From: a virus
Length of the DNA: 24,573 nucleotides
Strand: one strand, 5' to 3'
IMG/VR virus record: IMGVR_UViG_3300021197_000720
Location: 1-24,573 of that record
Positions 8,352 through 22,067 of this stretch are shown piece after piece. The notes beneath the pieces are model-generated. The model saw only the letters and a list, made by a program, of their open reading frames with translations. It ran no database searches and had not been told where the DNA came from. How positions within the stretch are numbered: position 1 is the stretch's first letter; the number at the start of each line of letters is the position of its first letter. The position numbers and the translations under genes are program-made.

Positions 8352-9731
8352 ATGCAAAAAGAAAACATCAGCTTCTCAAAATATGGCAAGAATTTTCAAG
8401 AAGTACTCGCTTACTTAATTCTTGAAGATCGCCCCTTTTCGGAACAAATAGAAGAAGTGCTTGACGTTAACTTTTTTGAGTTAAATTACTTAAAAGTTTT
8501 TGTCTCTAAGATATTCAACTACCGAGCCAAGTACAAGGTTCATCCTACCTCAAAGATCTTTGATTCTATTATAAGAACAGAGCTAGATGATGAATCTGAA
8601 GCGACACGTGAGCAGGTCCGTCGATATTTTGCCCGCTCAATCGTAAGAGCCCCCACTGACGGCGAATATATCAAGAGCACTGCCCTCGACTTTTGCAAGA
8701 AGCAGAAGCTAAAAGAAGCGATATTAAAATCTGTTAACCTGCTTCAGAACTCTTCGTATGATGAAATCAAGAAATTGATAGACGATGCCTTGAATCTTGG
8801 TATCGATAACGATTACGGTCATGACTTTCAAAAAGATTTTGAATTGCGATATGAGCTTCGAGCACGAAACCCCGTGTCCACCGGATGGGATAAACTTGAT
8901 AACCTAACAAAAAATGGTCTTGGGAAGGGAGAGCTTGGCGTCGTCATTGCCCCCACCGGAGCAGGTAAGTCAATGGTTCTCGCTCATCTGGGAGCAGAAG
9001 CGGTCAAAGCAGGACGCAACGTTGTACACTATACACTAGAGTTGTCAGAAGAGGTGACAGGGCTCCGTTACGATAGTTGTATTAGCGGCGTCCGCCTGGG
9101 CGATCTACACTCAATGAAAGACATGGTGTACGACTCGATTAAGGAAGTCGAGGGTAAGCTAGTCATTAAAGAATACCCAACCAAATCAGCATCAGTTAAT
9201 ACTTTGCACTCTCATCTAGAAAAGTTACAAAAAAATAAAACAAAAATTGGAATGATTATAGTAGATTACGGTGATTTGCTCAAACCAGTGGGAAGTTATA
9301 GGGAGAAAAGGAATGAGTTAGAGTCTATTTATGAAGGACTCCGTGCTTTAGCACAAGAATTTGAATGTCCTATCTGGACAGCCTCCCAAACTAATAGGTC
9401 TGGTTTGAACGCAGAAGTAATTACGATGGAATCTATCTCGGAAGCGTTTAGTAAATGCTTTGTTGCAGATATGATATTTTCAGTTTCACGAACAATAGAA
9501 GATAAGAACACAAACCAAGGTCGCATTTTTGTAGCTAAAAACAGAAATGGACCAGATGGGCTTGTATTTCCTATCTTTATGGACACATCAAGAGTAAAAA
9601 TAAAGATACTGGACGCCCCAATTGTTTCAGATGAAAGAAAGCCGGTGAATAAACTTGTTGAGGTTTATCAGAAAAGCAAGAAGGAGTTCAATAGCGCAAA
9701 AAATGAAGGAAGTAAAGATGCAAACAGCTAA
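8352..9731 (+). CDS. DnaB/T4 gp41-like replicative helicase
   Basis: 459 residues. A hexameric 5'-3' helicase that unwinds the fork. The N-terminal 150 residues are helical, like the DnaB primase-contact domain. The RecA-like motor domain follows: VSTGWDKLDNLTKNGLGKGELG, Walker A PTGAGKS (Lys206), HYTLELSEEV, the Walker B-like IGMIIVDYGDLL, and TASQTNRSG, a typical DnaB-family motif. No primase gene is seen in this window. The ribosome site is weak (GGGACAG). The last 14 bases overlap the start of the ribonucleotide reductase gene, so the two are probably made together. Confidence 0.9.
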   Translation: MQKENISFSKYGKNFQEVLAYLILEDRPFSEQIEEVLDVNFFELNYLKVFVSKIFNYRAKYKVHPTSKIFDSIIRTELDDESEATREQVRRYFARSIVRAPTDGEYIKSTALDFCKKQKLKEAILKSVNLLQNSSYDEIKKLIDDALNLGIDNDYGHDFQKDFELRYELRARNPVSTGWDKLDNLTKNGLGKGELGVVIAPTGAGKSMVLAHLGAEAVKAGRNVVHYTLELSEEVTGLRYDSCISGVRLGDLHSMKDMVYDSIKEVEGKLVIKEYPTKSASVNTLHSHLEKLQKNKTKIGMIIVDYGDLLKPVGSYREKRNELESIYEGLRALAQEFECPIWTASQTNRSGLNAEVITMESISEAFSKCFVADMIFSVSRTIEDKNTNQGRIFVAKNRNGPDGLVFPIFMDTSRVKIKILDAPIVSDERKPVNKLVEVYQKSKKEFNSAKNEGSKDANS

Positions 9732-11574
9732 TCAAATATTATCAGATATCACAGTGCATATGAAATATGCACGTTATTTACCCAAGAAAGAAAGACGGGA
9801 AACTTGGAAGGAACTTGTTTCGAGAAACAAGAAGATGCATATTAAAAAGTATCCCGAGCTAAAAGAAGAGATTAATCAGGCGTACAATTACGTCTATGAT
9901 AAAAAAGTCCTCCCTTCTATGCGCTCTATGCAGTTTGGCGGCAAACCCATTGAGGTCGCACCCAACCGTATTTATAATTGCGCTTATCTTCCTATTGATG
10001 ATTGGCATTCCTTTAGCGAGGTAATGTTTCTTCTCCTTGGAGGTACTGGTGTAGGGTATTCAGTTCAAAAGCACCATGTTGAAGCTCTTCCAGAAGTTCA
10101 GAAACCAAGCTCAAAAAGAACTCGCCGGTTTTTAATTGGCGATTCTATTGAAGGCTGGGCTGATTCCGTTAAGACTTTGCTTCGTAGCTATTTTCACGGA
10201 GGATCTAGGATAAGGTTTGATTTTTCAGACATCCGTCCCAAGGGTTCGCGACTAGTTACTTCTGGTGGCAAAGCACCGGGACCTCAACCTCTCAAAGAGT
10301 GCTTATTAAAAATCGAGGGTATACTTGACGCGAAAGAAAATGGCGACAAACTTGAGCCAATTGAAGTACACGATATTGTTTGTTATATTGCCGATGCTGT
10401 ACTTGCCGGTGGCATTCGTCGCGCTGCTCTTATCTCTCTTTTTAGCGCCGACGATGAAGAAATGCTCGCCTCAAAAGCTGGTAAATGGTGGGAAACTAGC
10501 CCCCAGCGAGGTAGAGCGAACAATTCAATTGTCCTGATGAGACACCGCATAACAAAAGAATACTTTGCGGAGCTATGGGATAGAGTAAAAGCCTCAAATT
10601 CAGGTGAACCAGGGTTTTATTTTACTAACGATAAGGACTGGGGGACTAACCCTTGCTGCGAGATCGCTCTGCGACCATATCAGTTCTGTAATTTAACAGA
10701 AGTGAATGTTAGCGACGTTGACTCACAGGAAGAATATGAAGGAAGAGTCCAAGCTGCATCGTTTATCGCAACTTTGCAAGCAGGGTACACTGATTTCCAT
10801 TACCTACGCGATATCTGGCAACGTCACACGGAAAAGGACGGACTCATTGGCGTGTCTATGACGGGCATTGCCTCCGGTAATGTTTTAGGTCTTGATATGA
10901 CCAAGGGAGCGAGACTGGTTAAAAAAGAAAACCAAAGAGTTTCAAAGCTGATAGGAATCAAACCAGCAAGCCGCACAACCTGCGTAAAACCTGCTGGAAC
11001 AACTTCCTTGACACTAGGAACTTCATCTGGGATTCATGCTTGGCACAACGATTACTATATCCGCCGTATCCGAGTCGGTAAGAACGAGCCTATCTATACT
11101 TATCTCTCTATTAACCATCCCGAGCTTGTTGAAGACGAGTACTTTAGACCGCACGATACGGCTGTAATTTCAGTACCACAGAAAGCTCCTGAAGCTGCGA
11201 TTACACGACACGAAAGTGCCTTACAACTCTTAAAAAGGGTGAAGAAGGTCAGCCAAGAGTGGATTAAGCCCGGTCACCGCCGAGGACAAAACACTCATAA
11301 TGTCTCTGCCACTGTATCGATTAAAGATTCAGAGTGGATCGACGTAGGCGAGTGGATGTGGGAAAACAGAGATTACTATAATGGGCTTTCTGTTTTACCT
11401 CATAACGGGGGCTCATATGTACAGGCTCCGTTTGAAGACTGCTCCTCAGAGAAGTATGAGAAGCTGGCTGAAGCCCTCAGTAGCGTGAATTTATCTAAAG
11501 TAGTTGAGCTTGAAGACAACACAGATCTCAAAGGAGAGCAGGCGTGCGCAGCAGGAGCCTGCGAGGTCACTTAA
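9718..11574 (+). CDS. nrdJ: Adenosylcobalamin-dependent (class II) ribonucleotide reductase, monomeric RTPR type
   Basis: 618 residues from the ATG at 9718, chosen for its AAGGAAG site and a 14-base overlap with the helicase gene. It reduces ribonucleotides to deoxyribonucleotides using vitamin B12 cofactor, needing no oxygen. Residues line up with the Lactobacillus leichmannii enzyme: Cys88 in NCAYLP (redox Cys119), NPCCEI with Cys313 and Glu315 (thiyl Cys408, Glu410), and Cys324 in FCNL exactly 11 residues later (Cys419). The tail Cys610 and Cys615 have the C-x4-C spacing of the swinging pair (Cys731/736). PAGTTSL is the phosphate loop. It is shorter than the 739-residue reference. The host or its surroundings must supply B12. 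Confidence 0.93.
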   Translation: MQTANQILSDITVHMKYARYLPKKERRETWKELVSRNKKMHIKKYPELKEEINQAYNYVYDKKVLPSMRSMQFGGKPIEVAPNRIYNCAYLPIDDWHSFSEVMFLLLGGTGVGYSVQKHHVEALPEVQKPSSKRTRRFLIGDSIEGWADSVKTLLRSYFHGGSRIRFDFSDIRPKGSRLVTSGGKAPGPQPLKECLLKIEGILDAKENGDKLEPIEVHDIVCYIADAVLAGGIRRAALISLFSADDEEMLASKAGKWWETSPQRGRANNSIVLMRHRITKEYFAELWDRVKASNSGEPGFYFTNDKDWGTNPCCEIALRPYQFCNLTEVNVSDVDSQEEYEGRVQAASFIATLQAGYTDFHYLRDIWQRHTEKDGLIGVSMTGIASGNVLGLDMTKGARLVKKENQRVSKLIGIKPASRTTCVKPAGTTSLTLGTSSGIHAWHNDYYIRRIRVGKNEPIYTYLSINHPELVEDEYFRPHDTAVISVPQKAPEAAITRHESALQLLKRVKKVSQEWIKPGHRRGQNTHNVSATVSIKDSEWIDVGEWMWENRDYYNGLSVLPHNGGSYVQAPFEDCSSEKYEKLAEALSSVNLSKVVELEDNTDLKGEQACAAGACEVT

Positions 11575-11890: not shown

Positions 11891-12181
11891 ATGAATCCAG
11901 TTCCCTTTAACCGTCACCTCCTTGTCTCTAAACAGTTAGAGCAAGGAGAAGAAAATAAGAGTTTGGTCCTTGTACCGGAAGAGTATAAGCAGCGTGAGGC
12001 ATTTGCCATGGTAAGTGTCGTCACGCCAGCCCAAGACTGTAACTCTCAATGGTCACCGGGGGATACGGTTATCGTACCAACTCATACAATTGAGACTCTA
12101 TCTGTAGGTGGTGAGCAATATCATCTAGTATTAGAAAACCACGTACTAATGGGGCTTCTCGATAATATTAAAGGTGAATAA
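11891..12181 (+). CDS. groES: GroES-like co-chaperonin (gp31 role)
   Basis: 96 residues, the normal GroES length. It caps the GroEL ring; in T4, gp31 replaces host GroES so that the capsid protein can fold. The GroES pattern is visible: PVPFNRHLLV at the start, LVLVPEEYK in the mobile-loop region, PGDTVIVP in the core, and QYHLVLENHVLMGLL at the end. No GroEL gene is in the window, so the host chaperonin is the likely partner. AGGA precedes the ATG. Its TAA stop overlaps the ATG of the PEP carboxykinase gene by one base, which implies coupled translation of the two. Confidence 0.85.
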   Translation: MNPVPFNRHLLVSKQLEQGEENKSLVLVPEEYKQREAFAMVSVVTPAQDCNSQWSPGDTVIVPTHTIETLSVGGEQYHLVLENHVLMGLLDNIKGE

Positions 12182-13647
12182 TGAGAAATCTATCCCGCGC
12201 AGCGCTGGTCTACTGGACCTTGTTTAAAAAAGTTAATAAGCCCCGTCTTACAAACGACGGGGCTTTAGTCGTTGAGACTACTCCTCATACAGGACGATCG
12301 CCAGATGCGAAGTATATTGTAAGAGACGAGATTACTGATAAACTCGTTGACTGGGAGAATAATCAGCCTATTAGCGAAGAAGAGTTTGAAGAGTATTCAA
12401 GCAGCTTCCTCTCAGAGGCAGAGACCCATCGCTTTTATGAGCAAGATTTGTATGCCTGTGCCGATGACAAGCATCAGCTTCCTATTCGAGTTAACACCAT
12501 AAAGCCCTGGCACTCTTTGTTTGCAAAGAACATGTTCTTTAAACCATCCCCAGAGGAGATTAAAGATTTCAAGCCAGAGTTTCAAGTTTACTCAATGCCA
12601 TCGTACACTGAAGAACCAAGGGTGATCATTTCCTTCAAGAAGAAGATAATCTTAATCAGTGGCACAGATTACGCAGGTGAGATTAAGAAAAGTGTGTTCA
12701 CAGTGCTGAACTTTTTATTGCCTCAAAAGGGCGTACTGCCAATGCACTGTTCTGTAAGCCTCCGCGAAAAAGATCACAAGTCTACCGTCTTTTTTGGATT
12801 ATCCGGCACAGGAAAGACGACGCTATCCTCGGATACCTACAGCTATCTTGTCGGAGACGACGAGCATGGCTGGTCATCAACCGGACTGTTCAACTTTGAA
12901 GCGGGATGCTATGCCAAGACTATACGCCTCTCCCCAGATAAAGAGCCTTTGATTTTTGACGCCTGTCATAAGTTTGGAACGATTTTAGAAAACGTAGTCG
13001 TTAAAGATGACGACGCTGACTTTGATGATGCGACCCTCACAGAAAATACCAGAGCTTCTTACCCTTTAAGTTTCATCGATAACATATGGCTTGAGCCCCG
13101 GTGTGAACATCCAACTAATATTATCATGCTGACGTGTGACGCTTATGGGGTCCTCCCACCAGTGGCACGCTTAGATCCTGACAAGGCAGTCGAACAGTTT
13201 TTGCTTGGCTATACAGCAAAAGTGGCAGGAACAGAAAAAGGAGTCACGGAGCCAGAGCCCACGTTCTCGCACTGCTTTGGCTCCCCTTTTATGCCTCTGC
13301 GCCCTGGAGTATATGCAGAGTTATTGCGCTCCAAGATAAAGAAGCATAATGTTAAGTGCTGGCTTGTGAACACTGGTTGGCAAGGCGGACCATATGGCGA
13401 AGGCTCCCGTATCGATATCGCAGTCACACGTAAGATCATCGACGCAATCCAGGATGGGGACTTTGATGAGGATAAATGTAAGTATGTTTGGCATTCTTAC
13501 ACCGATCTTGAAGTTCCTGACAGCGACAAGGTTCCTTTGGATATGAGATTTCCAGAGCGCGGCTGGGCTTCTAAAGAGAAATATGTTGAGACCGCACGAA
13601 GCTTAATGAGCAAGTTTATTAATCGTTTAAAAACAATGACTTTGTAA
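12181..13647 (+). CDS. pckA: ATP-dependent phosphoenolpyruvate carboxykinase
   Basis: 488 residues against about 530-540 in bacteria, with the shortening mainly at the N-terminus and at the extreme C-terminus. It converts oxaloacetate and ATP to phosphoenolpyruvate, CO2 and ADP, the first step of gluconeogenesis from the TCA cycle. All recognisable active-site parts are present: TGRSP (Arg39), DYAGEIKK (Tyr164, Lys169/170), MHCS (His189), the kinase loop GLSGTGKTTLS (206-216), VGDDEHGW (Asp226/227), TENTR (Arg291) and TAKVAGTEKG, then LVNTGWQGG. So it looks active and of the ATP, not GTP, type. It lies between a GroES-like and a lytic transglycosylase gene, with phage codon style and no sign of decay. 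A metabolic role during infection is inference. AAAGGTG precedes the start. Confidence 0.95.
   Translation: MRNLSRAALVYWTLFKKVNKPRLTNDGALVVETTPHTGRSPDAKYIVRDEITDKLVDWENNQPISEEEFEEYSSSFLSEAETHRFYEQDLYACADDKHQLPIRVNTIKPWHSLFAKNMFFKPSPEEIKDFKPEFQVYSMPSYTEEPRVIISFKKKIILISGTDYAGEIKKSVFTVLNFLLPQKGVLPMHCSVSLREKDHKSTVFFGLSGTGKTTLSSDTYSYLVGDDEHGWSSTGLFNFEAGCYAKTIRLSPDKEPLIFDACHKFGTILENVVVKDDDADFDDATLTENTRASYPLSFIDNIWLEPRCEHPTNIIMLTCDAYGVLPPVARLDPDKAVEQFLLGYTAKVAGTEKGVTEPEPTFSHCFGSPFMPLRPGVYAELLRSKIKKHNVKCWLVNTGWQGGPYGEGSRIDIAVTRKIIDAIQDGDFDEDKCKYVWHSYTDLEVPDSDKVPLDMRFPERGWASKEKYVETARSLMSKFINRLKTMTL
12238..12265 (+). other. Strong hairpin inside the start of pckA
   Basis: The arms 12238-12247 (AAGCCCCGTC) and 12256-12265 form a perfect 10-bp stem around an 8-base loop. 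It resembles the stem of an intrinsic terminator but lies within codons 20-29 and is followed only by TTTA on this strand. On the opposite strand a six-T run follows after six bases. Confidence 0.7.
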
Positions 13648-13766: not shown

Positions 13767-14339
13767 ATGATTAATTTTACACTCGCACTAGCGACTTTAC
13801 TAACAACAGCAACTACAGACCCTTCCTACCAAGACTTGGTATTCGAAGCACAATACTCCTGCCACAATGCGAACCCAGACACCGTTAAAGAAGAACTTTT
13901 ATGGGACTTGGTAAAGGTAGAGAAGAAGTACAACGTGCCATCATCTTTAAAAGGAATGGTCTTAGCCGCCTCTTGCTCGGAGTCTGGATACAATCCAGCA
14001 GCAAAGGGAGACTACAGGGTTATCAAGAACAAGAGGTTGCCAATGGCAATCGGTATCCTTCAGCAATGGCCTTGGTATGAAAAGGCTTATGGGATCAATA
14101 GAACGAAGCACGTTGAGGCAGCAGATGCCTGGATGAAGCACATACAGAAGAAACTTCATGTTGCCGAGAGGAAGTGCGGATTCAAAAATCTAAAAAAGAA
14201 ATGGATTGCAGCTTGGGTCACAGCTATTAGGTATCCGAAACCAGAGGGCAGGTGCTATGAAAAGCCCCGTCACCTTCGGATCCTTAAAAAGTGGCACCGT
14301 AATATCAAGAACTCCAAAAACAAAGAGGATGGATGCTAA
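13767..14339 (+). CDS. Exported lytic transglycosylase / lysozyme-like protein
   Basis: 190 residues. A hydrophobic N-terminus (residues 1-17, small residues before Asp18) suggests a signal peptide, although no early Lys/Arg is present. The SLT-like core includes LKGMVLAASCSESGYNPAA, in which Glu72 is in the position of the catalytic Glu (E-S-x-xNP), followed by MAIGILQQWPWYEKAYG, the equivalent of the G-L-M-Q-l motif. The C-terminus is very basic. Four Cys (32, 70 and two later) could form disulfides outside the cytoplasm. It likely cuts peptidoglycan at lysis or entry. It lies away from any recognisable holin in this window. Confidence 0.75.
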   Translation: MINFTLALATLLTTATTDPSYQDLVFEAQYSCHNANPDTVKEELLWDLVKVEKKYNVPSSLKGMVLAASCSESGYNPAAKGDYRVIKNKRLPMAIGILQQWPWYEKAYGINRTKHVEAADAWMKHIQKKLHVAERKCGFKNLKKKWIAAWVTAIRYPKPEGRCYEKPRHLRILKKWHRNIKNSKNKEDGC

Positions 14340-15178
14340 GGGGTCATTTGTATCATTGGAAAGAATTAGTAATAGGAGAAAATCTAAATGCTATCATCTA
14401 TGCAAATCAACACAGCACTAAAATACTCGCTCTTCACGAGCCTACTATATTACCTTTCGACAAGTTTTGTACTTCATATGATTTGGGGCTAAAAAGCATC
14501 AATGAAGGAGATTCCAAGTATGAACTTGTTAGAGAACTTACGTTCAAGGCGGCTATTGACGGTCAGCATCCTTTTGCCGATAATTTGGTTTCTATCAAAA
14601 TCACTCCTGAAGAAAACCAAGTCAAAGTCGTAACCAAGAACGGTTCAGTTGTTCATATTGAATATGAAAAATTACGTATTTTCAACCCTGAAGGCATCCA
14701 GGGAATCCCTTTTGAGATAAACGAGAGGACTGATAATTATAAAGTTATCGACTGGTTTGATGTCAGATCTGGCGCAGGTCACAAGTTTGACTTCCTTGAA
14801 GACCCTGAAAATTCATTTGTAAATAAGATATATTTCTATCTTTCCGAACGAATCGATGGGAACGTAAGATATAAAGATCTAGCATCAGAATCTATATTAA
14901 CAAAGCAAGAATTACATAGTCCTGATTATTCTGACACTGTTGCTCGACTTAAGACTATCTCGATGATGAAAGAAGCAGGTATTAACGGACAATCAAATGG
15001 AGTCCGTCAGTTCTTACCAATACGCCTTGAGCTTTATCATCGAGAAGTTATACCAAACAAAGCATTTGACTTTGTTGAAGAAGGCAATATAATAGTTGAT
15101 AATAGAACCGAAGAGAATGTTTTAAATGAGTGGATTTCATCTTGCAGGAATAGTGCCAGTAGCAGGGCAACCGCTTGA
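14333..15178 (+). CDS. Unknown protein, first gene of an overlapping trio
   Basis: 281 residues, not recognised. It overlaps the end of the transglycosylase gene by 7 bases; AGAGGA lies four bases before the ATG, which favours this start, though the start is not certain because the next in-frame ATG is far downstream. The protein appears soluble with mixed strands and helices: NAIIYANQHSTKILAL, a strand-rich part QVKVVTKNGSVVHIEYEKLRIF, and a helical end with KTISMMKEAGING and LPIRLELYHREVIP. Its last 53 bases overlap the following gene in another frame, an unusually long overlap. The strict pairing suggests that it works with the nucleotidyltransferase-like product. Confidence 0.75.
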   Translation: MLRGHLYHWKELVIGENLNAIIYANQHSTKILALHEPTILPFDKFCTSYDLGLKSINEGDSKYELVRELTFKAAIDGQHPFADNLVSIKITPEENQVKVVTKNGSVVHIEYEKLRIFNPEGIQGIPFEINERTDNYKVIDWFDVRSGAGHKFDFLEDPENSFVNKIYFYLSERIDGNVRYKDLASESILTKQELHSPDYSDTVARLKTISMMKEAGINGQSNGVRQFLPIRLELYHREVIPNKAFDFVEEGNIIVDNRTEENVLNEWISSCRNSASSRATA

Positions 15179-15992
15179 CTTCAATATGCCTTGGCATGAT
15201 TCGCTAATGCCAATCTCCCAAAACTACTTGGCTGTTGAAAGGGCGGTTATTGAATGTGCTTATGCTGGTTGCGAGACAATATGGCTCATCTGCCATACGG
15301 ACATGCAGCCTTTGATAAGGCATCGTCTTGGAGATTATGTCCAAGACCCTGTTTGGATTAATCGCAGATATGAACTTCAAAGAGACAAATTCCACAAGCC
15401 AGTGCCTATCCACTATGTACCTATCCATCCAAGAGATAGAGAGAAGCGTGACTGCTTATCTTGGAGTGTGCTGTACGGCGCATGGATGTCTCAAAAGGTA
15501 TGCGGAAGGTTAAGCATTCATTTGAAACCTGATATGTATTACACAGCATTCCCTTATGGAGTCTACCACGTTTCGAAAGTTCGGGAGCATCGAAAAGCCA
15601 TATCTTCCAAGAGACCTTTTTATCTTTCACACAATGGAAAGACAATAATTGATGGTGAGTATCTAGCCTTCACAGCAACCCCCGATACGTTTAGGAGGTT
15701 GAGTTCCGAAGTGGCTGTAAAATCAACTGGTGTTTATGAGGACGAAGCGAGAACAAAGAAACTACCTATTGAAGAAAGATATTCTTATAGGCACTTTAAA
15801 CTTGAGCAAGTTTTTGATACACTGTCTTTAGACGGAGCAAAGGTTCACGAATTGGAAAGATACTGGAGAATTGATTCTTGGGAAGAATACAAGAAGTATA
15901 TGGCTGTCGAGAAGGCACATATCAGAAGGCCAGGTAAATCCCTCTTGTCTTACAAAGAATGGAATGGAATTGGAGTAGACGAAATTGAATGA
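15126..15992 (+). CDS. Nucleotidyltransferase-like protein (GT-A/NTP-transferase fold)
   Basis: 288 residues. The start HLAGIVPVAGQPLDF, followed by LMPISQNYLAVERAVIECAY and AGCETIWLICH, follows the pattern of sugar-nucleotide and other NTP transferases: a Gly-rich nucleotide loop, a substrate helix, then aGc..I.lv. The usual GxGxR lysine/arginine signature is altered, with PVAGQPL in its place, so the substrate is unclear. The C-terminal half has Tyr/Arg-rich segments and no known motif. The start at 15126 is needed to include the N-terminal loop and makes a 53-base overlap with the previous gene. Its TGA overlaps the cysteine synthase start by 8 bases. A role in modifying a nucleotide, sugar or protein is inference. 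Confidence 0.6.
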   Translation: MSGFHLAGIVPVAGQPLDFNMPWHDSLMPISQNYLAVERAVIECAYAGCETIWLICHTDMQPLIRHRLGDYVQDPVWINRRYELQRDKFHKPVPIHYVPIHPRDREKRDCLSWSVLYGAWMSQKVCGRLSIHLKPDMYYTAFPYGVYHVSKVREHRKAISSKRPFYLSHNGKTIIDGEYLAFTATPDTFRRLSSEVAVKSTGVYEDEARTKKLPIEERYSYRHFKLEQVFDTLSLDGAKVHELERYWRIDSWEEYKKYMAVEKAHIRRPGKSLLSYKEWNGIGVDEIE

Positions 15993-16839
15993 CATAAACA
16001 ACCTAATTGGTAACACACCATTTATAAAGCTAGGTGAAAAGCTTTATGCAAAGCTAGAAACTTATAACCCTTCGGGCTCTATCAAAGACAGGATGGCTTC
16101 TTATATCCTTTCGAAAGCCTTAGAGCGTGGAGATCTACAAGGAAAAGACACCATTGTGGTGGCTTCCTCGGGAAATACTGGCATCGCTTTTTCAATGCTC
16201 TCGGCTGCCCACAGCCTTGATTGTGTTGTGATTATGCCTTGCAATATGAGCGAAGAACGAAAGCAAATGATGAGGGCTTACGGCGCGACCATTGTTGAGG
16301 TTGGACCAAGTGCGTTCAAAGATGCAATATCTCTCCGTGATAAGATGCTGGAAGAGAATTCTAATTACTGGTCACCCAAACAATTCAGCAACCCTGACAA
16401 CATTGAGTGCCACCGTCGCACCACTGCTGTAGAGATAGCGCAATCTGTCCTAGAAATACCCGCACGTTTGTCAGCCCTTGTAAGCGGAGCCGGTACAGGG
16501 GGAACGATTATGGGATGTCAATCCTACTTCCCTCGGTTATGGAAGGAAACCAAAATGCTCCTAACAACCCCAGCCGAAGATGCAGCTACTCATGGGATAC
16601 AAGGGATCAATGACGGCGCTGACTTTTTAGTGGACAAGAACCTGATCGATGAGGAGCTACTGGTGAGTACTGAAGACGCCAAGCAAAGAGCCAGCCAGCT
16701 AGCAAAAGAAAATGGCTTGCTCGTCGGCATCAGTTCTGGCGCAAACGTCCTCGCCGCCGAGCGATGGATAGAAAAAAACAATCCCACCGGAGTGGTGGTA
16801 ACCTTTCTTTGCGATAGAGGAGAAAGGTATTTAAGTTGA
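15985..16839 (+). CDS. Cysteine synthase-like PLP enzyme (O-acetylserine sulfhydrylase family)
   Basis: 284 residues. The family makes cysteine from O-acetylserine (or a related serine ester) and sulfide. The PLP Lys34 is in NPSGSIKDR, the substrate loop ASSGNTG is at 60-66, the phosphate-binding GAGTGGT is mid-protein, and GISSGAN and CDRGERYLS close the fold. All key residues are present. It is shorter than CysK (about 320) and ends right after the GERYLS motif, so the C-terminal dimer segment is trimmed. The only in-frame start is the TTG at 15985, because a TAG lies three codons upstream and the ATG at 15989 is in another frame. GGAG precedes it. Tight coupling to the two upstream genes suggests a joint pathway. 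Confidence 0.88.
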   Translation: MNDINNLIGNTPFIKLGEKLYAKLETYNPSGSIKDRMASYILSKALERGDLQGKDTIVVASSGNTGIAFSMLSAAHSLDCVVIMPCNMSEERKQMMRAYGATIVEVGPSAFKDAISLRDKMLEENSNYWSPKQFSNPDNIECHRRTTAVEIAQSVLEIPARLSALVSGAGTGGTIMGCQSYFPRLWKETKMLLTTPAEDAATHGIQGINDGADFLVDKNLIDEELLVSTEDAKQRASQLAKENGLLVGISSGANVLAAERWIEKNNPTGVVVTFLCDRGERYLS

Positions 16840-17245: not shown

Positions 17246-20200
17246 ATGCAACGCACCAAATCATCTATCCCTTTTGTCGGACTACACGCCCATTCAGTAG
17301 CAGGCTCGCCCTTCGATGCCCTTGGGTATCCCCAAGCTCATATGGACTATGCCTATAGTAATGGAGCCGATGCCCTAGCCCTAACTGACCACGGCAATAT
17401 GAATGGACTGGCTTATCAGATTCTTCATGCTAAAAAGATGAAGTCAGAAGGCAAAGAGTTTAAGCCAATCTATGGTTGTGAGGCATACTTTACTCCATCC
17501 GTAAAAGAGTGGAAAGAGGAATACAATAAAGCCCAGCAGGATAAGAAGACTGCATCTAAAGCGAAGAAAGAATCAGAGAAGATTACAGCCGAAGACGAGT
17601 CTGCCTCTAAGCGCAAGTCTAATAAACTCCGCAGCCGAAGCCATCTTATACTGCTCGCACAAAACCAAGAAGGATTAAACAACATCTTTAATCTTATTTC
17701 GGAATCCTTCCAGGGCGATAACTTCTATCGATATCCCCGCTTGGATTTCGAACTTCTTAAGAAGTACAACAAAGGAATTATTGCTTCCTCTGCTTGTCTC
17801 GGAGGCGTTTACGCCACCTTGTATTGGAACAATAAGGACAAGGGAGAAGAAGCTGTTTTAGAGGCTATGCGAGACACAACCAAAAAAATGTTAGATATTT
17901 TTGGTGACCGTTGGTATGGCGAATTACAGTGGATTAAGTCAAAGGACCAGCATAACCTTAATCACTACATCCTTCAAATGAAAGAGGAATTTGGAATTAA
18001 GGTAATCTCTACAGCAGATAGCCACTACCCGAGCCCTGACGCTTGGAAGGATCGAGAGCTATACAAACGATTAGGAATTCTACCAGCCATAACTAAATAC
18101 AAGGACAAGCCCGAAGAGTTACCGGACTGGCTCTCGCCTGATTTGCCGGAAGAGTTGGAGGAAATCGGCTATGAGTTATATCCTAAAAATGGCGATCAAA
18201 TGTGGGAATCCTATAAGGAATACAGCAAGTATTCTGACAGACCTTATAATGATTCTGACGTTCTTGACTCTATTACTCTTACCCATGATATTGCTTTCAA
18301 TCGTATTGAAGGGTTTATCCCTGATAATAAAGTTCGTTTGCCCTCGTTTGTGGTCCCAGAAGGACAGACAGCTACCAATGCACTGATTGCTCAATGTATT
18401 GATGGCTTAAAATCCCTTAAGCTCAATAAGAAAAATGAGTATGTAGAGCGCTTGCGACACGAATTGCGTGTCATCGATGAAAGAGGCTTCAGCAAATACT
18501 TCCTGACGATGAAGGCAATCGCGGATAAAGCCAACGAGCATATGCTTTCAGGTCCAGGCAGGGGCTCTGCCGCTGGGTCCCTAGTGGCATATGTTTTAGG
18601 AATCACGCAGGTTGACCCTATCAAGTATGGGCTGCTGTTCAGCCGCTTCCTGCGATCTGACGCCCAAGACTATCCAGATATCGATTATGATGTTTCTGAT
18701 GCTTTCGGTCTTAAGGAGATCCTGGCAGAGGAGTGGGGTCATAAAACTGTTATCCCTATTTCAAACTTTAATACTCTACAGCTTCGATCTCTGATCAAGG
18801 ACATCAGTAAGTTTTATGACGTCCCGTTCAAAGATGTCAACTCTGTTACGTCAGTAATGGAAAAGGAAGCTATGCCCAAAGCCAAGGCAAAGCATGGCAT
18901 CAAAGCAGGAGTATACGCTCCGACCTTCGAAGAGGTTATGGAGTTCTCTGAATCCCTCCAACGGTTCTTAAGAAACTACCCCCAGATTAAAACACACGTC
19001 GAGGCTTTGTTTGGTCAACGTCGTTCAACCAGTAGGCACGCAGGCGGCGTCGTAATCGGAGAAGACCTGGATAAGCATATGCCTTTGATTAGTTCAGGCG
19101 GTATCTTGCAAACTCCTTGGTCAGAAGGACAGAACGTCCGTCATCTTGAGCCTCTTGGCTTTATTAAGTTTGACCTTCTTGGGCTTTCAACTCTCGAAAT
19201 GGTTGAGTCCTGTATTAGGCACCTTCTCCAGAGAACCAAAGGCGTTGAAAATCCAACCTATGATGACGTTAGGTCCTGGTACAATAAGAACCTGCATCCT
19301 GATGTCATTGACCTGGAAGATAAAGCAGTCTATAAGCATGTCTTCCACAAGGGCAACTTTGTTGGCATCTTTCAGTTCACAAACGAAGGCGCACAGAAAT
19401 TCTGTAAAAGCGCAAAGCCAAATAACATTATTGATATCTCTGCTATCACTTCGATTTACCGTCCCGGTCCTCTGTCCGCCAAGGTAGACCAAGAGTACGC
19501 GAAAGCCAAAAAGAACCCTGATGGGATTCACTATGTCAACAACGTTGTTAAAGAAGTAACATCGGAGACAGCAGGGTTCCTCATCTTCCAGGAGCAGATT
19601 GCTCTTCTTGCTCATAAGCTGGGCAAGGACATCAGCTTGGATGAAGGGAACCTCCTCCGAAAGCTCTTGACAAAGAAAGGAACAGGCAAGGGCGCACAAG
19701 AGAAAGAAAAGATCAGAGTTAAGTTTGTGGATGGTTGCCTTGAAAAGGGTATCGACCGAGCCACTTCCGGTGCAATGTGGAAGAAGTTTGAGTACTTCTC
19801 TGGCTACGGCTTCAATAAAAGCCACGCGGTATCTTACTCCGTTCTCTCTTACCAGTGTGCTTGGCTATACTACTACTATCCAGAGTGCTGGGCTGCTGCG
19901 TTCCTCGACAAGGAGCCTGAAGCTCGCAAGGAGTTTGCAGTAAACCTGGTTCAAAAATATGGATTCAACGTTCAAAAGGTTGATGTTAATAAGTCAACAC
20001 AGCAATGGGAGATAGCCGAGGGCAATGTTCTGATACAACCCTTAAGCTCAATTAAGGGACTGGGTGACAAAGCCATCGAGCAGATATTAAACAACAGACC
20101 TTTCAACACTCCCGAGGAGCTTTTGTTCAGTGAGAACGTTGTTTACTCCAAACTAAATAAGAAAGCTCTTGAAGCTATGTGTGAGAGTGGCGCTTTAGAT

Positions 20201-20698
20201 ACTCTGGTGGATGAAAGGTTTACAGGGTTAAAACACTTTTGGCTTTCCTGTGTCAAGAATCGACCAAAGACCAAGAAGAAACTTGTCACTCACATTGAAG
20301 AGTATAAGACTAAAGACGACTTTACTCCAGAACAGCGAATTGAACACATCTCTTCGAGAACGGGCATCTACCCCTTCGACCTTGTGATGACTCATGAGAT
20401 TAGAGAGATGATTGACCGCTACAAAGTACCGCCTCTTGGCAACTGGGACCAAGCCCTCAAAGCAGCCTGGTTTATACCGAGGGAAATTGTAAAGCGGAAG
20501 ACCAAGACAGGTCGAGAATACTGGATTGTAAAAGTAATTGATGAAACATCTACGATCTCTACAATCCGCTGCTGGGGCATTGTACCAGGCTCGGATGTAC
20601 TTCACCTGAACAGGGTATACGCATCTTCTTTGGAATACCATCCTATCTGGGGATATTCCACGAAGTCTATTAGGCAGAACTTTAAACTATTAGGTTGA
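17246..20698 (+). CDS. dnaE: DNA polymerase III alpha subunit (DnaE type)
   Basis: 1150 residues, close to E. coli DnaE (1160). A C-family replicative polymerase. The N-terminal PHP domain keeps its metal ligands: His14 and His16 (GLHAHS), Asp48 and His49 (TDHGN), the EAYF Glu and ADSHY, so a metal-dependent proofreading activity is possible. The catalytic core has GPGRGSAAGSLVAYVLG, then PDIDYD with Asp478 and Asp480, and IKFDLLGL with Asp643, matching the three E. coli catalytic Asp residues. Further on are FQEQIALLA, GYGFNKSHAVSY, a helix-hairpin-helix (IKGLGDKAIEQI) and a C-terminal OB fold. The tau-binding end of E. coli DnaE seems short. No clamp gene is in this window. GAGG precedes the ATG. 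Confidence 0.96.
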   Translation: MQRTKSSIPFVGLHAHSVAGSPFDALGYPQAHMDYAYSNGADALALTDHGNMNGLAYQILHAKKMKSEGKEFKPIYGCEAYFTPSVKEWKEEYNKAQQDKKTASKAKKESEKITAEDESASKRKSNKLRSRSHLILLAQNQEGLNNIFNLISESFQGDNFYRYPRLDFELLKKYNKGIIASSACLGGVYATLYWNNKDKGEEAVLEAMRDTTKKMLDIFGDRWYGELQWIKSKDQHNLNHYILQMKEEFGIKVISTADSHYPSPDAWKDRELYKRLGILPAITKYKDKPEELPDWLSPDLPEELEEIGYELYPKNGDQMWESYKEYSKYSDRPYNDSDVLDSITLTHDIAFNRIEGFIPDNKVRLPSFVVPEGQTATNALIAQCIDGLKSLKLNKKNEYVERLRHELRVIDERGFSKYFLTMKAIADKANEHMLSGPGRGSAAGSLVAYVLGITQVDPIKYGLLFSRFLRSDAQDYPDIDYDVSDAFGLKEILAEEWGHKTVIPISNFNTLQLRSLIKDISKFYDVPFKDVNSVTSVMEKEAMPKAKAKHGIKAGVYAPTFEEVMEFSESLQRFLRNYPQIKTHVEALFGQRRSTSRHAGGVVIGEDLDKHMPLISSGGILQTPWSEGQNVRHLEPLGFIKFDLLGLSTLEMVESCIRHLLQRTKGVENPTYDDVRSWYNKNLHPDVIDLEDKAVYKHVFHKGNFVGIFQFTNEGAQKFCKSAKPNNIIDISAITSIYRPGPLSAKVDQEYAKAKKNPDGIHYVNNVVKEVTSETAGFLIFQEQIALLAHKLGKDISLDEGNLLRKLLTKKGTGKGAQEKEKIRVKFVDGCLEKGIDRATSGAMWKKFEYFSGYGFNKSHAVSYSVLSYQCAWLYYYYPECWAAAFLDKEPEARKEFAVNLVQKYGFNVQKVDVNKSTQQWEIAEGNVLIQPLSSIKGLGDKAIEQILNNRPFNTPEELLFSENVVYSKLNKKALEAMCESGALDTLVDERFTGLKHFWLSCVKNRPKTKKKLVTHIEEYKTKDDFTPEQRIEHISSRTGIYPFDLVMTHEIREMIDRYKVPPLGNWDQALKAAWFIPREIVKRKTKTGREYWIVKVIDETSTISTIRCWGIVPGSDVLHLNRVYASSLEYHPIWGYSTKSIRQNFKLLG

Positions 20699-20999: not shown

Positions 21000-21447
21000 G
21001 TACACGAGAGTCAGAGACAACGTAATCCCTCCGACAAGAGGGAACCCAAGCGATGCAGGGTTGGACGTTTACTTTAACCCTATTGATGGGCAAGGAGTAA
21101 CGCTCGCTCCTGGTACGAGCGCCCGATTACAAACGGGGCTCCGCTTTGGCGTGCCTCACGGTTACATGCTCCAGGTGATGAATCGGTCATCCGTCGCAGC
21201 GAAGAGGAACCTCGTCGTCGGCGCTCATGTAATTGACTCTGGCTATGACGGTGAGGTGTTTATCGACTTACATAACATAGGCACCACACACCAGATAATA
21301 GGACCACAAGTTAAGATCGCACAAGTGGTCCTACTGCCGATAATCCCTTTCCGTGCGATGGAAACTGAATCAGGAAATCTTTACAACTGGTATCCAATCA
21401 CTATCTCTGATAGGGGCGATGGAGCTTTAGGGAGCACTGACAAGTGA
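20989..21447 (+). CDS. dut: Trimeric dUTPase
   Basis: 152 residues. It splits dUTP to dUMP and pyrophosphate, keeping uracil out of DNA and feeding dTMP synthesis. All five motifs are present: SDAGLDVYF (1), NRSSVAAKRNL (2), VIDSGYDGEV with the catalytic Asp (3), VKIAQVVLLP (4) and SDRGDGALGST (5). Motif 5 reads RGDGALGST rather than the usual RGxGGFGST. Length matches the homotrimeric class. It overlaps the zinc-ribbon gene at the front and the GTG of the endonuclease gene at its stop. It works alongside the ribonucleotide reductase in this genome. Confidence 0.95.
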   Translation: MIIEYTRVRDNVIPPTRGNPSDAGLDVYFNPIDGQGVTLAPGTSARLQTGLRFGVPHGYMLQVMNRSSVAAKRNLVVGAHVIDSGYDGEVFIDLHNIGTTHQIIGPQVKIAQVVLLPIIPFRAMETESGNLYNWYPITISDRGDGALGSTDK

Positions 21448-22067
21448 AAAACCAATTCAAACACAACGAAGACGGAACAACACACATCTTTGTGGAGACT
21501 AAGAATAAATACTTCCCAGGTAAACACACAATCATCATAGACACAGAAGACTGGGATAAGGTTAAGGAGTATAAGTGGGTGATTCAAGCCAACTCACATT
21601 GTAGCTACCCTTATGCCGGAACCAGCATCCCCCATCCAGACGGAGGGTGGTATCATTACACTTGGCAAGGCAAAGAGCTACGACGAAGACGAAGGACGTG
21701 CCTTCAACTCCATCATCTTATAATGGGAAAGCCCCGGAAGGGATTGGTTGTTGACCACATAAACCACGATGGTATTCGCACTGGATTAGACAACAGAAAA
21801 GATAATTTAAGAGAAGTAACCCCATCCCAGAATGGTCAAAACAGGCGGTCCAACAAAAACTCCTCCTCACAATATAAAGGGGTTAGCTGGGATAAGAGAG
21901 AAAAAAAATGGCAAGCACAAATTTTCCACAAAGGAAAAAAAACCCACATCGGCGTCTTCATCTGTGAGCATCAAGCTGCCCTAGCTTACAATGAAAAAGC
22001 TACAGAGTTATGGGGAGAGAATGCCCTATTAAACGAAGTGAAAACTCAAGAGGAGACAGGAGAATAA
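21444..22067 (+). CDS. HNH homing endonuclease with AP2 DNA-binding domain
   Basis: 207 residues starting at a GTG that overlaps the dUTPase stop (GTGA). A strand-rich N-terminus leads to an HNH core: LQLHHLIMG, then VVDHINHDGIRTGLDNRKDN and LREVTPSQNGQNRR, with the catalytic His, the Asn and the metal-binding His visible. An AP2-like DNA-binding domain follows: SSQYKGVSWDKREKKWQA, IGVFICEHQAALAYNEKA and LWGENALLN. This is the common free-standing phage homing endonuclease. No intron or split gene is evident beside it; dut and the next gene both look whole. It may cut the matching site of related phages and spread its own region. Confidence 0.93.
   Translation: MKNQFKHNEDGTTHIFVETKNKYFPGKHTIIIDTEDWDKVKEYKWVIQANSHCSYPYAGTSIPHPDGGWYHYTWQGKELRRRRRTCLQLHHLIMGKPRKGLVVDHINHDGIRTGLDNRKDNLREVTPSQNGQNRRSNKNSSSQYKGVSWDKREKKWQAQIFHKGKKTHIGVFICEHQAALAYNEKATELWGENALLNEVKTQEETGE

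Follow-up and report, generated by a model that had tools for sequence, protein, structure and literature searches.

The conserved element in the viral sequence studied here (IMG/VR record IMGVR_UViG_3300021197_000720; all 24,573 nucleotides of it are referred to as the window) is a pair of genes of the replication module: g1, which encodes a short protein with a predicted flavoprotein fold, and NT, which encodes a protein with a predicted nucleotidyltransferase fold. An earlier note, made from the letters of the window, had treated them as two-thirds of an overlapping trio completed by a gene for cysteine synthase (gene 3). Comparison with relatives gives good support to a smaller unit, in which g1 and NT are fixed within the replication module of an uncultured T4-like phage lineage. 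The cysteine synthase gene stands apart from this unit, as an auxiliary metabolic gene that is mobile, an optional passenger that has landed in this slot.

Scans of viral contigs with four different NT queries confirmed 40, 444, 391, and 492 relatives, with overlap between the sets. The analysis took in 289 NT-bearing loci, which a simple 4-mer rule for redundancy reduced to 158. Wherever a non-redundant locus has at least 1.5 kb of upstream sequence, g1 is found upstream of NT (148/148), overlapping it in 115 of the 148 loci and separated from it by intervening genes in 19. The loci were chosen by NT, so that the counts show NT never without g1, not the converse; g1 itself was found via NT, its alignment being too variable for a pattern scan, and a single g1 query against the viral contigs found no relative. 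The contigs are fragments, and the absences reported here apply to the sequence at hand. On the other side of the pair, a DnaE-type replicative DNA polymerase lies downstream of NT in all 62 non-redundant loci with more than 7 kb of downstream sequence, and in 16 of these NT and DnaE overlap each other. The pair sits between a RecA/UvsX-like gene and this polymerase, in a module composed of RecA, an exonuclease, DnaB, ribonucleotide reductase (RNR; family found in 119/140 loci), the co-chaperonin Cpn10 (a Cpn10-like gene in 115/140 loci), g1, NT, DnaE, dUTPase, and IMPDH/GMPR.

The pair marks a large environmental phage group, standing beside the replicative polymerase wherever this can be checked, yet tblastn, with two g1 and two NT sequences as queries, gave no match in 50,697 phage records. 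When 84,980 genomes of bacteria and archaea were scanned by pattern, NT relatives appeared in only two, both metagenome-assembled (L116, PBOB01000035.1, and L117, CP070664.1); g1 and DnaE accompany NT in each of them, so that both probably represent phage DNA that was binned together with cellular genomes. The literature searches made brought up no publication on a g1-NT pair, which is no proof of absence.

As to the phages that carry the pair, the T4-type capsid protein Gp23 is present in all 14 large pair-encoding contigs (132–203 kb), the window being too short to show it, and by its capsid sequence the lineage is Far-T4-like (for Far-T4 phages, see Roux et al. 2015, PMC4360716, a text without the words DnaE, cysteine, or nucleotidyltransferase). 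With one capsid of the lineage as the query, the nearest proteins are those of an uncultured 484-kb phage, Microcystis phage Mel-JY01, Flavobacterium phage immuto, and Rhodothermus phage RM378, with best matches of 42–50% identity over about 60% of the query length. Profile searches found neither g1 nor NT in eight phage records, which include RM378, the cultured Far-T4 representative among the nearest named capsids, and the other nearest capsid relatives that were checked. A search for the T4-type sliding clamp family gave no match, but no control rang either, so that this negative carries no weight.

All three open reading frames are genuine genes, judged by their conservation, because the closest relative (L002; 71% identity in g1, 80% in NT, and 83% in gene 3) keeps all three, including both overlaps and the TTG. 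The ATG at 14333 that starts g1 is retained in L002, as are the TTG of gene 3 and its −8 spacing, and L043 likewise has the −8 spacing. The gene structure given in the earlier note for this 24.6-kb record is thus confirmed, namely overlaps of 53 bases (g1/NT) and 8 bases (NT/gene 3) and, for gene 3, a TTG at 15985 that is the sole ATG, GTG, or TTG in the open frame upstream of the conserved part. The conclusion drawn there from the tight packing, a fixed stoichiometry, has to be given up: of the window's 28 pairs of neighbouring genes, 12 overlap, the longest by 77 bases, so overlap alone is uninformative on stoichiometry or a shared pathway. This longest overlap is between the DnaB helicase frame (8352–9731) and the RNR frame (9655–11574), and the RNR start (TTG 9655) may be set too far upstream.

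The identity of gene 3 was read correctly: it matches Pfam PALP with E=3e-59 and, aligned to E. coli CysK and CysM, has the motifs of O-acetylserine sulfhydrylase (OASS) intact, including the pyridoxal phosphate (PLP) lysine, Lys34, and SGNTG, GTGGT, and DRGERYLS. From these residues the enzyme looks active and, because they are intact, we infer that it makes cysteine. The best NCBIfam model, TIGR01136 (5.5e-73), scores 245.9 bits, below its curated cut-off of 344.15, and we consider gene 3 to encode a divergent phage version of a putative cysteine synthase.

Among 124 relatives with enough flanking sequence, cysteine synthase lies near the pair in 25 (directly after NT in 16, further downstream in 4, and between g1 and NT in 5) and is missing nearby in the other 99; in L233, beyond the 25, it adjoins RNR upstream of g1. 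No PALP enzyme was found in 11 of the 14 large contigs. A search centred on cysteine synthase gave 27 loci. In 13 of them g1 and NT are missing from the neighbourhood, and when the 13 virus contigs concerned (7 to 298 kb, some being short fragments, with seven above 65 kb and five above 150 kb) were searched by profile, neither partner was found, the same profiles having found both in G001. In the cysteine synthase tree, the copies located between g1 and NT form one branch (100/99) and the lineage's other copies another (100/100); three pair-less phage copies fall within the second branch, mostly as long branches whose placement is unsure. Because the gene is mostly missing near the pair, variably placed, and present in pair-less contigs, it is not part of the unit. 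Of the proposal that the three genes stay together, the part concerning g1 and NT therefore stands, and the part concerning the cysteine synthase does not, this gene being scattered in other genomes, the very outcome that the earlier note had named as refuting its idea.

The same observations bear on the idea that all three genes serve one pathway, in which the PLP enzyme would make a β-substituted alanine for attachment to DNA, a nucleotide, or a protein. What speaks for it is that the genes are adjacent in the window and in the 16 relatives just mentioned; the 99 relatives without the gene beside the pair, the 11 large contigs without PALP, its several positions and pair-less occurrences, and its ordinary OASS motifs make such a pathway extremely improbable. 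A DNA-modification product of the trio is likewise unsupported, as NT is without the catalytic Arg and Lys and an enzyme of the thymidylate synthase type is found in 0/14 large contigs (both described below). The cysteine synthase, being a mobile passenger, is no guide to the function of the pair. We also observed cysteine synthase beside or near the RNR gene in L224, L228, L230, L231, and L233 (and, by eye, L232), most of which are without g1-NT; this association may be meaningful, or may reflect a shared insertion hot spot.

For NT, a nucleotidyltransferase fold had been suggested, and the structure search of its AlphaFold2 model, built with an alignment from these loci, supports this (predicted local distance difference test, pLDDT, 82.3; predicted template-modelling score, pTM, 0.84). 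The model matches RmlA-type thymidylyltransferases and IspD (Foldseek E 1.8e-7), superposing on a glucose-1-P thymidylyltransferase with a Z of 15.9 and a root-mean-square deviation of 3.3 over 201 residues, and the prediction of an RmlA/IspD-like fold of the GT-A (Rossmann-like) class is a strong one. By its signature, NT is not a canonical nucleotidyltransferase. The GxGTR...PK signature with its catalytic Arg and Lys is absent from the loop in 136 NT sequences, and the stretch that takes its place has strongly conserved residues of its own (W23 in 135, D25 in 134, H24 in 126, and D18 in 121). We call NT non-canonical because the two basic catalytic positions align with conserved aspartates: in the hhalign register of NT with GalF, which is not statistically significant but plausible by eye, the Arg position corresponds to Asp18 and the Lys position to Asp25. 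In E. coli GalF itself the residue corresponding to the Arg is a low-activity variant, so the assignment of the Arg rests on knowledge of the GalU family. Where the strand with the metal-binding Asp would be expected, NT reads FPYG, as judged by eye. The conserved polar and aromatic residues of NT are H5, W23, H24, D25, E38, R67, Y97, D104, W113, S130, and R156, and these, leaving aside Y97, are near-invariant and argue for a functional pocket.

For g1, the AlphaFold2 model (again with an alignment from these loci; pLDDT 89.4, pTM 0.80) gives a strong prediction of a short protein with the fold of the flavin adenine dinucleotide (FAD) oxidoreductases of the GR2 type. Among folds in the PDB, it matches PA4991 with a Z of 13.3 over 233 residues, followed by renalase, protoporphyrinogen oxidase (PPO), and UDP-galactopyranose mutase (UGM) with Z of 12–13, and in BFVD two unnamed viral proteins have the g1 fold (22–25% identity; template-modelling score 0.72–0.87). 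The GxGxxG dinucleotide motif is degenerate in the 131 g1 sequences compared; the loop in its position has G15 in 130/131, Gly at position 17 in only 23/131, and, at position 20, Ala in 116/131 and Ser in 12/131. The structure search of the first two products, which the earlier note had proposed, thus gave a recognisable predicted fold for each, flavoprotein-like and RmlA/IspD-like, with signatures that are degenerate in both.

Our tentative reading is that g1 and NT form a two-component enzyme acting on a nucleotide-type substrate in phage DNA synthesis. The two would act jointly on a nucleotide, a sugar nucleotide, or a DNA precursor: NT would provide a remodelled substrate pocket, in which Asp18, His24, and Asp25 replace the Arg/Lys grip on the triphosphate and perhaps bind a metal or some other ligand. 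For its part, g1 would be a Rossmann-type partner or a cofactor-binding subunit. Several results weigh against this. Neither fold is confirmed by any sequence method, and both rest on predicted models: g1 and NT, searched as single members and as 31- to 70-row alignments against Pfam, PHROGs, and PDB sequences, and NT also against NCBIfam, gave nothing significant; none of 33 NT members matches the Pfam NTP_transferase profile significantly (best 0.17); and hhalign comparisons of NT with E. coli RmlA and GalF, and of g1 with E. coli Glf, are not significant. The canonical cofactor and substrate motifs are degenerate in both proteins, so that catalysis is putative, and the nucleotide-loop region of the NT model (residues 18–33) is among its least certain parts. 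Finally, in a mutual-information test, underpowered at about 81 effective sequences, g1 and NT showed no more coupling to each other than each shows to DnaE or RNR.

About equally likely is that both proteins have enzyme folds without catalytic activity that now serve the replisome in a structural or regulatory role, for instance as partners of DnaE that are translated with it. The loss of canonical catalytic signatures in both proteins fits such a role, as do the constant linkage to DnaE (62/62) and the overlaps of NT with it (16/62). However, the new NT loop, with its many near-invariant polar residues, is conserved beyond what would be expected of a relic, the neighbours RNR, dUTPase, and IMPDH point equally to precursor metabolism, and no sequence coupling to DnaE was seen in what is a weak test. 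If structural, the pair would be an example of metabolic folds recycled within a phage replisome; an enzymatic pair would mean that widespread phages have a step in the chemistry of DNA precursors or of DNA modification that has gone unrecognised. In a more far-reaching form of the enzymatic reading, every phage of a major uncultured T4-like lineage would have a two-component enzyme of a new type, which modifies a nucleotide or DNA in a hitherto unknown way during replication by means of a rebuilt nucleotidyltransferase fold (Asp/His for the basic triphosphate grip) and a flavoprotein-fold subunit; this, we believe, is unlikely.

A further possibility is suggested by phages RB69 and Thanatos, in which genes for sugar-nucleotide proteins with a GT-A fold lie between those for UvsX and polymerase and are linked to DNA pentosylation (PMC6024577, PMC12838424). 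RB69 has a candidate sugar-nucleotide module located between UvsX and polymerase (PMC6024577), and TH1_063 of Thanatos has been demonstrated to be a UDP-xylose pyrophosphorylase (PMC12838424). By analogy, NT would be a sugar-1-phosphate nucleotidyltransferase and g1 a UGM-like mutase, together making an activated sugar for glycosylation of the phage DNA. The RmlA-like and UGM-like predicted folds agree with this, and the slot of the pair between RecA/UvsX and polymerase is the same as in these phages, which are also T4-like. Against it, the acidic residues of NT replace the canonical signature, which Thanatos TH1_060 retains as GMATR...PK, and NT has no sequence relation to either Thanatos protein (profile E 0.63 for TH1_063 and 0.12 for TH1_060, single comparisons). 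Moreover, a gene of the thymidylate synthase/dCMP hydroxymethylase family adjoins TH1_063 in Thanatos, whereas this family was found in 0/14 large contigs, which may be incomplete, by a search in which the control genomes rang. We therefore regard an activated-sugar function as quite improbable. TH1_063 and TH1_060 as homologues of NT are ruled out by the non-significant profile comparisons, and pentosylation of the RB69/Thanatos kind by the pair fails the tests made (homology, signature, and hydroxymethylase-type gene).

Table 1. The three overlapping genes, their diagnostic loops, and associated genes of the replication module, in window coordinates.
Feature	Position	Strand	Remarks
Gene 1 (g1)	14333..15178	+	281 amino acids, ATG start
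g1 residues 12–20, degenerate dinucleotide-binding loop V-I-G15-x-x17-L-x-A20	14366..14392	+	
Gene 2 (NT)	15126..15992	+	288 amino acids, ATG start
NT residues 14–29, G-xx-LDFxxPWHDxLMP in place of the GxGTR...PK signature	15165..15212	+	
Gene 3 (cysteine synthase, cysK/M family), accessory	15985..16839	+	284 amino acids, TTG start; PALP 3e-59
DnaE-type replicative DNA polymerase, constant neighbour downstream of the pair	17246..20698	+	Pfam; 62/62 relatives
Ribonucleotide reductase, probably class II (B12-dependent), same module	9655..11574	+	PHROG 367 1.3e-131, Pfam RNR-II_ins_dom
GroES-like (Cpn10) co-chaperonin, upstream of the pair	11891..12181	+	Pfam Cpn10 1.9e-5

Other genes of the window and of the lineage deserve mention. 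The frame that immediately precedes g1 and overlaps it by 7 bases (13767–14339) encodes a small protein that looks secreted and, with its ESGYNP stretch, may be lysozyme-like; a related family occurs in 30 loci, and the protein has no Pfam match. An ATP-type phosphoenolpyruvate carboxykinase (12181–13647; Pfam 1.1e-178) lies within the phage replication module and is also present in the two closest relatives (contigs L002/L210 and L043/L209), but not in the other loci examined. A protein with HNH and AP2 domains, probably a homing endonuclease, is encoded inside the module at 21444–22067. The frame at 232–2157 has MopE-like copper-binding motif repeats and a weak VWA match, and relatives are found near 9.1–10.3 kb in L029, between NT and DnaE, and in L031, after NT.

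PurA-like adenylosuccinate synthetase genes were identified by eye in four loci (L114:14108–15109, L011:6049–7053, L025:5592–6614, and L185:11549–12553), alongside IMPDH/GMPR, which suggests that the phages influence purine synthesis. We rejected a PurZ pathway, the phage route to 2-aminoadenine, since all four keep, by eye, the Asp of the GDEGKGK-type motif of PurA.

Compared with known systems, NT shares its predicted fold with the GT-A nucleotidyltransferases RmlA, GalU, and IspD (Z of about 14–16 over 180–215 residues), and its N-terminus aligns in register with that of GalF, but Asp18 and Asp25 align with the Arg of GxGTR and the Lys of PKxMLP, and no sequence match is significant. In the same way, g1 has a predicted fold in common with the FAD-dependent oxidoreductases PA4991, renalase, UGM, and p-hydroxybenzoate hydroxylase over most of its chain (Z of 12–13.3), from which it differs in its length of just 281 residues, in the rarity of the second Gly of GxGxxG (23/131), and in giving no significant sequence match. 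Gene 3 is the familiar member of the trio: phage-encoded cysteine synthases are already known as an organosulfur auxiliary metabolic gene, its best match in the phage collection is in an uncultured 635-kb phage (49%), and with the enzymes of Lactococcus phages AM6 and P087 and of jumbo phages it shares both family and intact catalytic motifs, with no notable difference.

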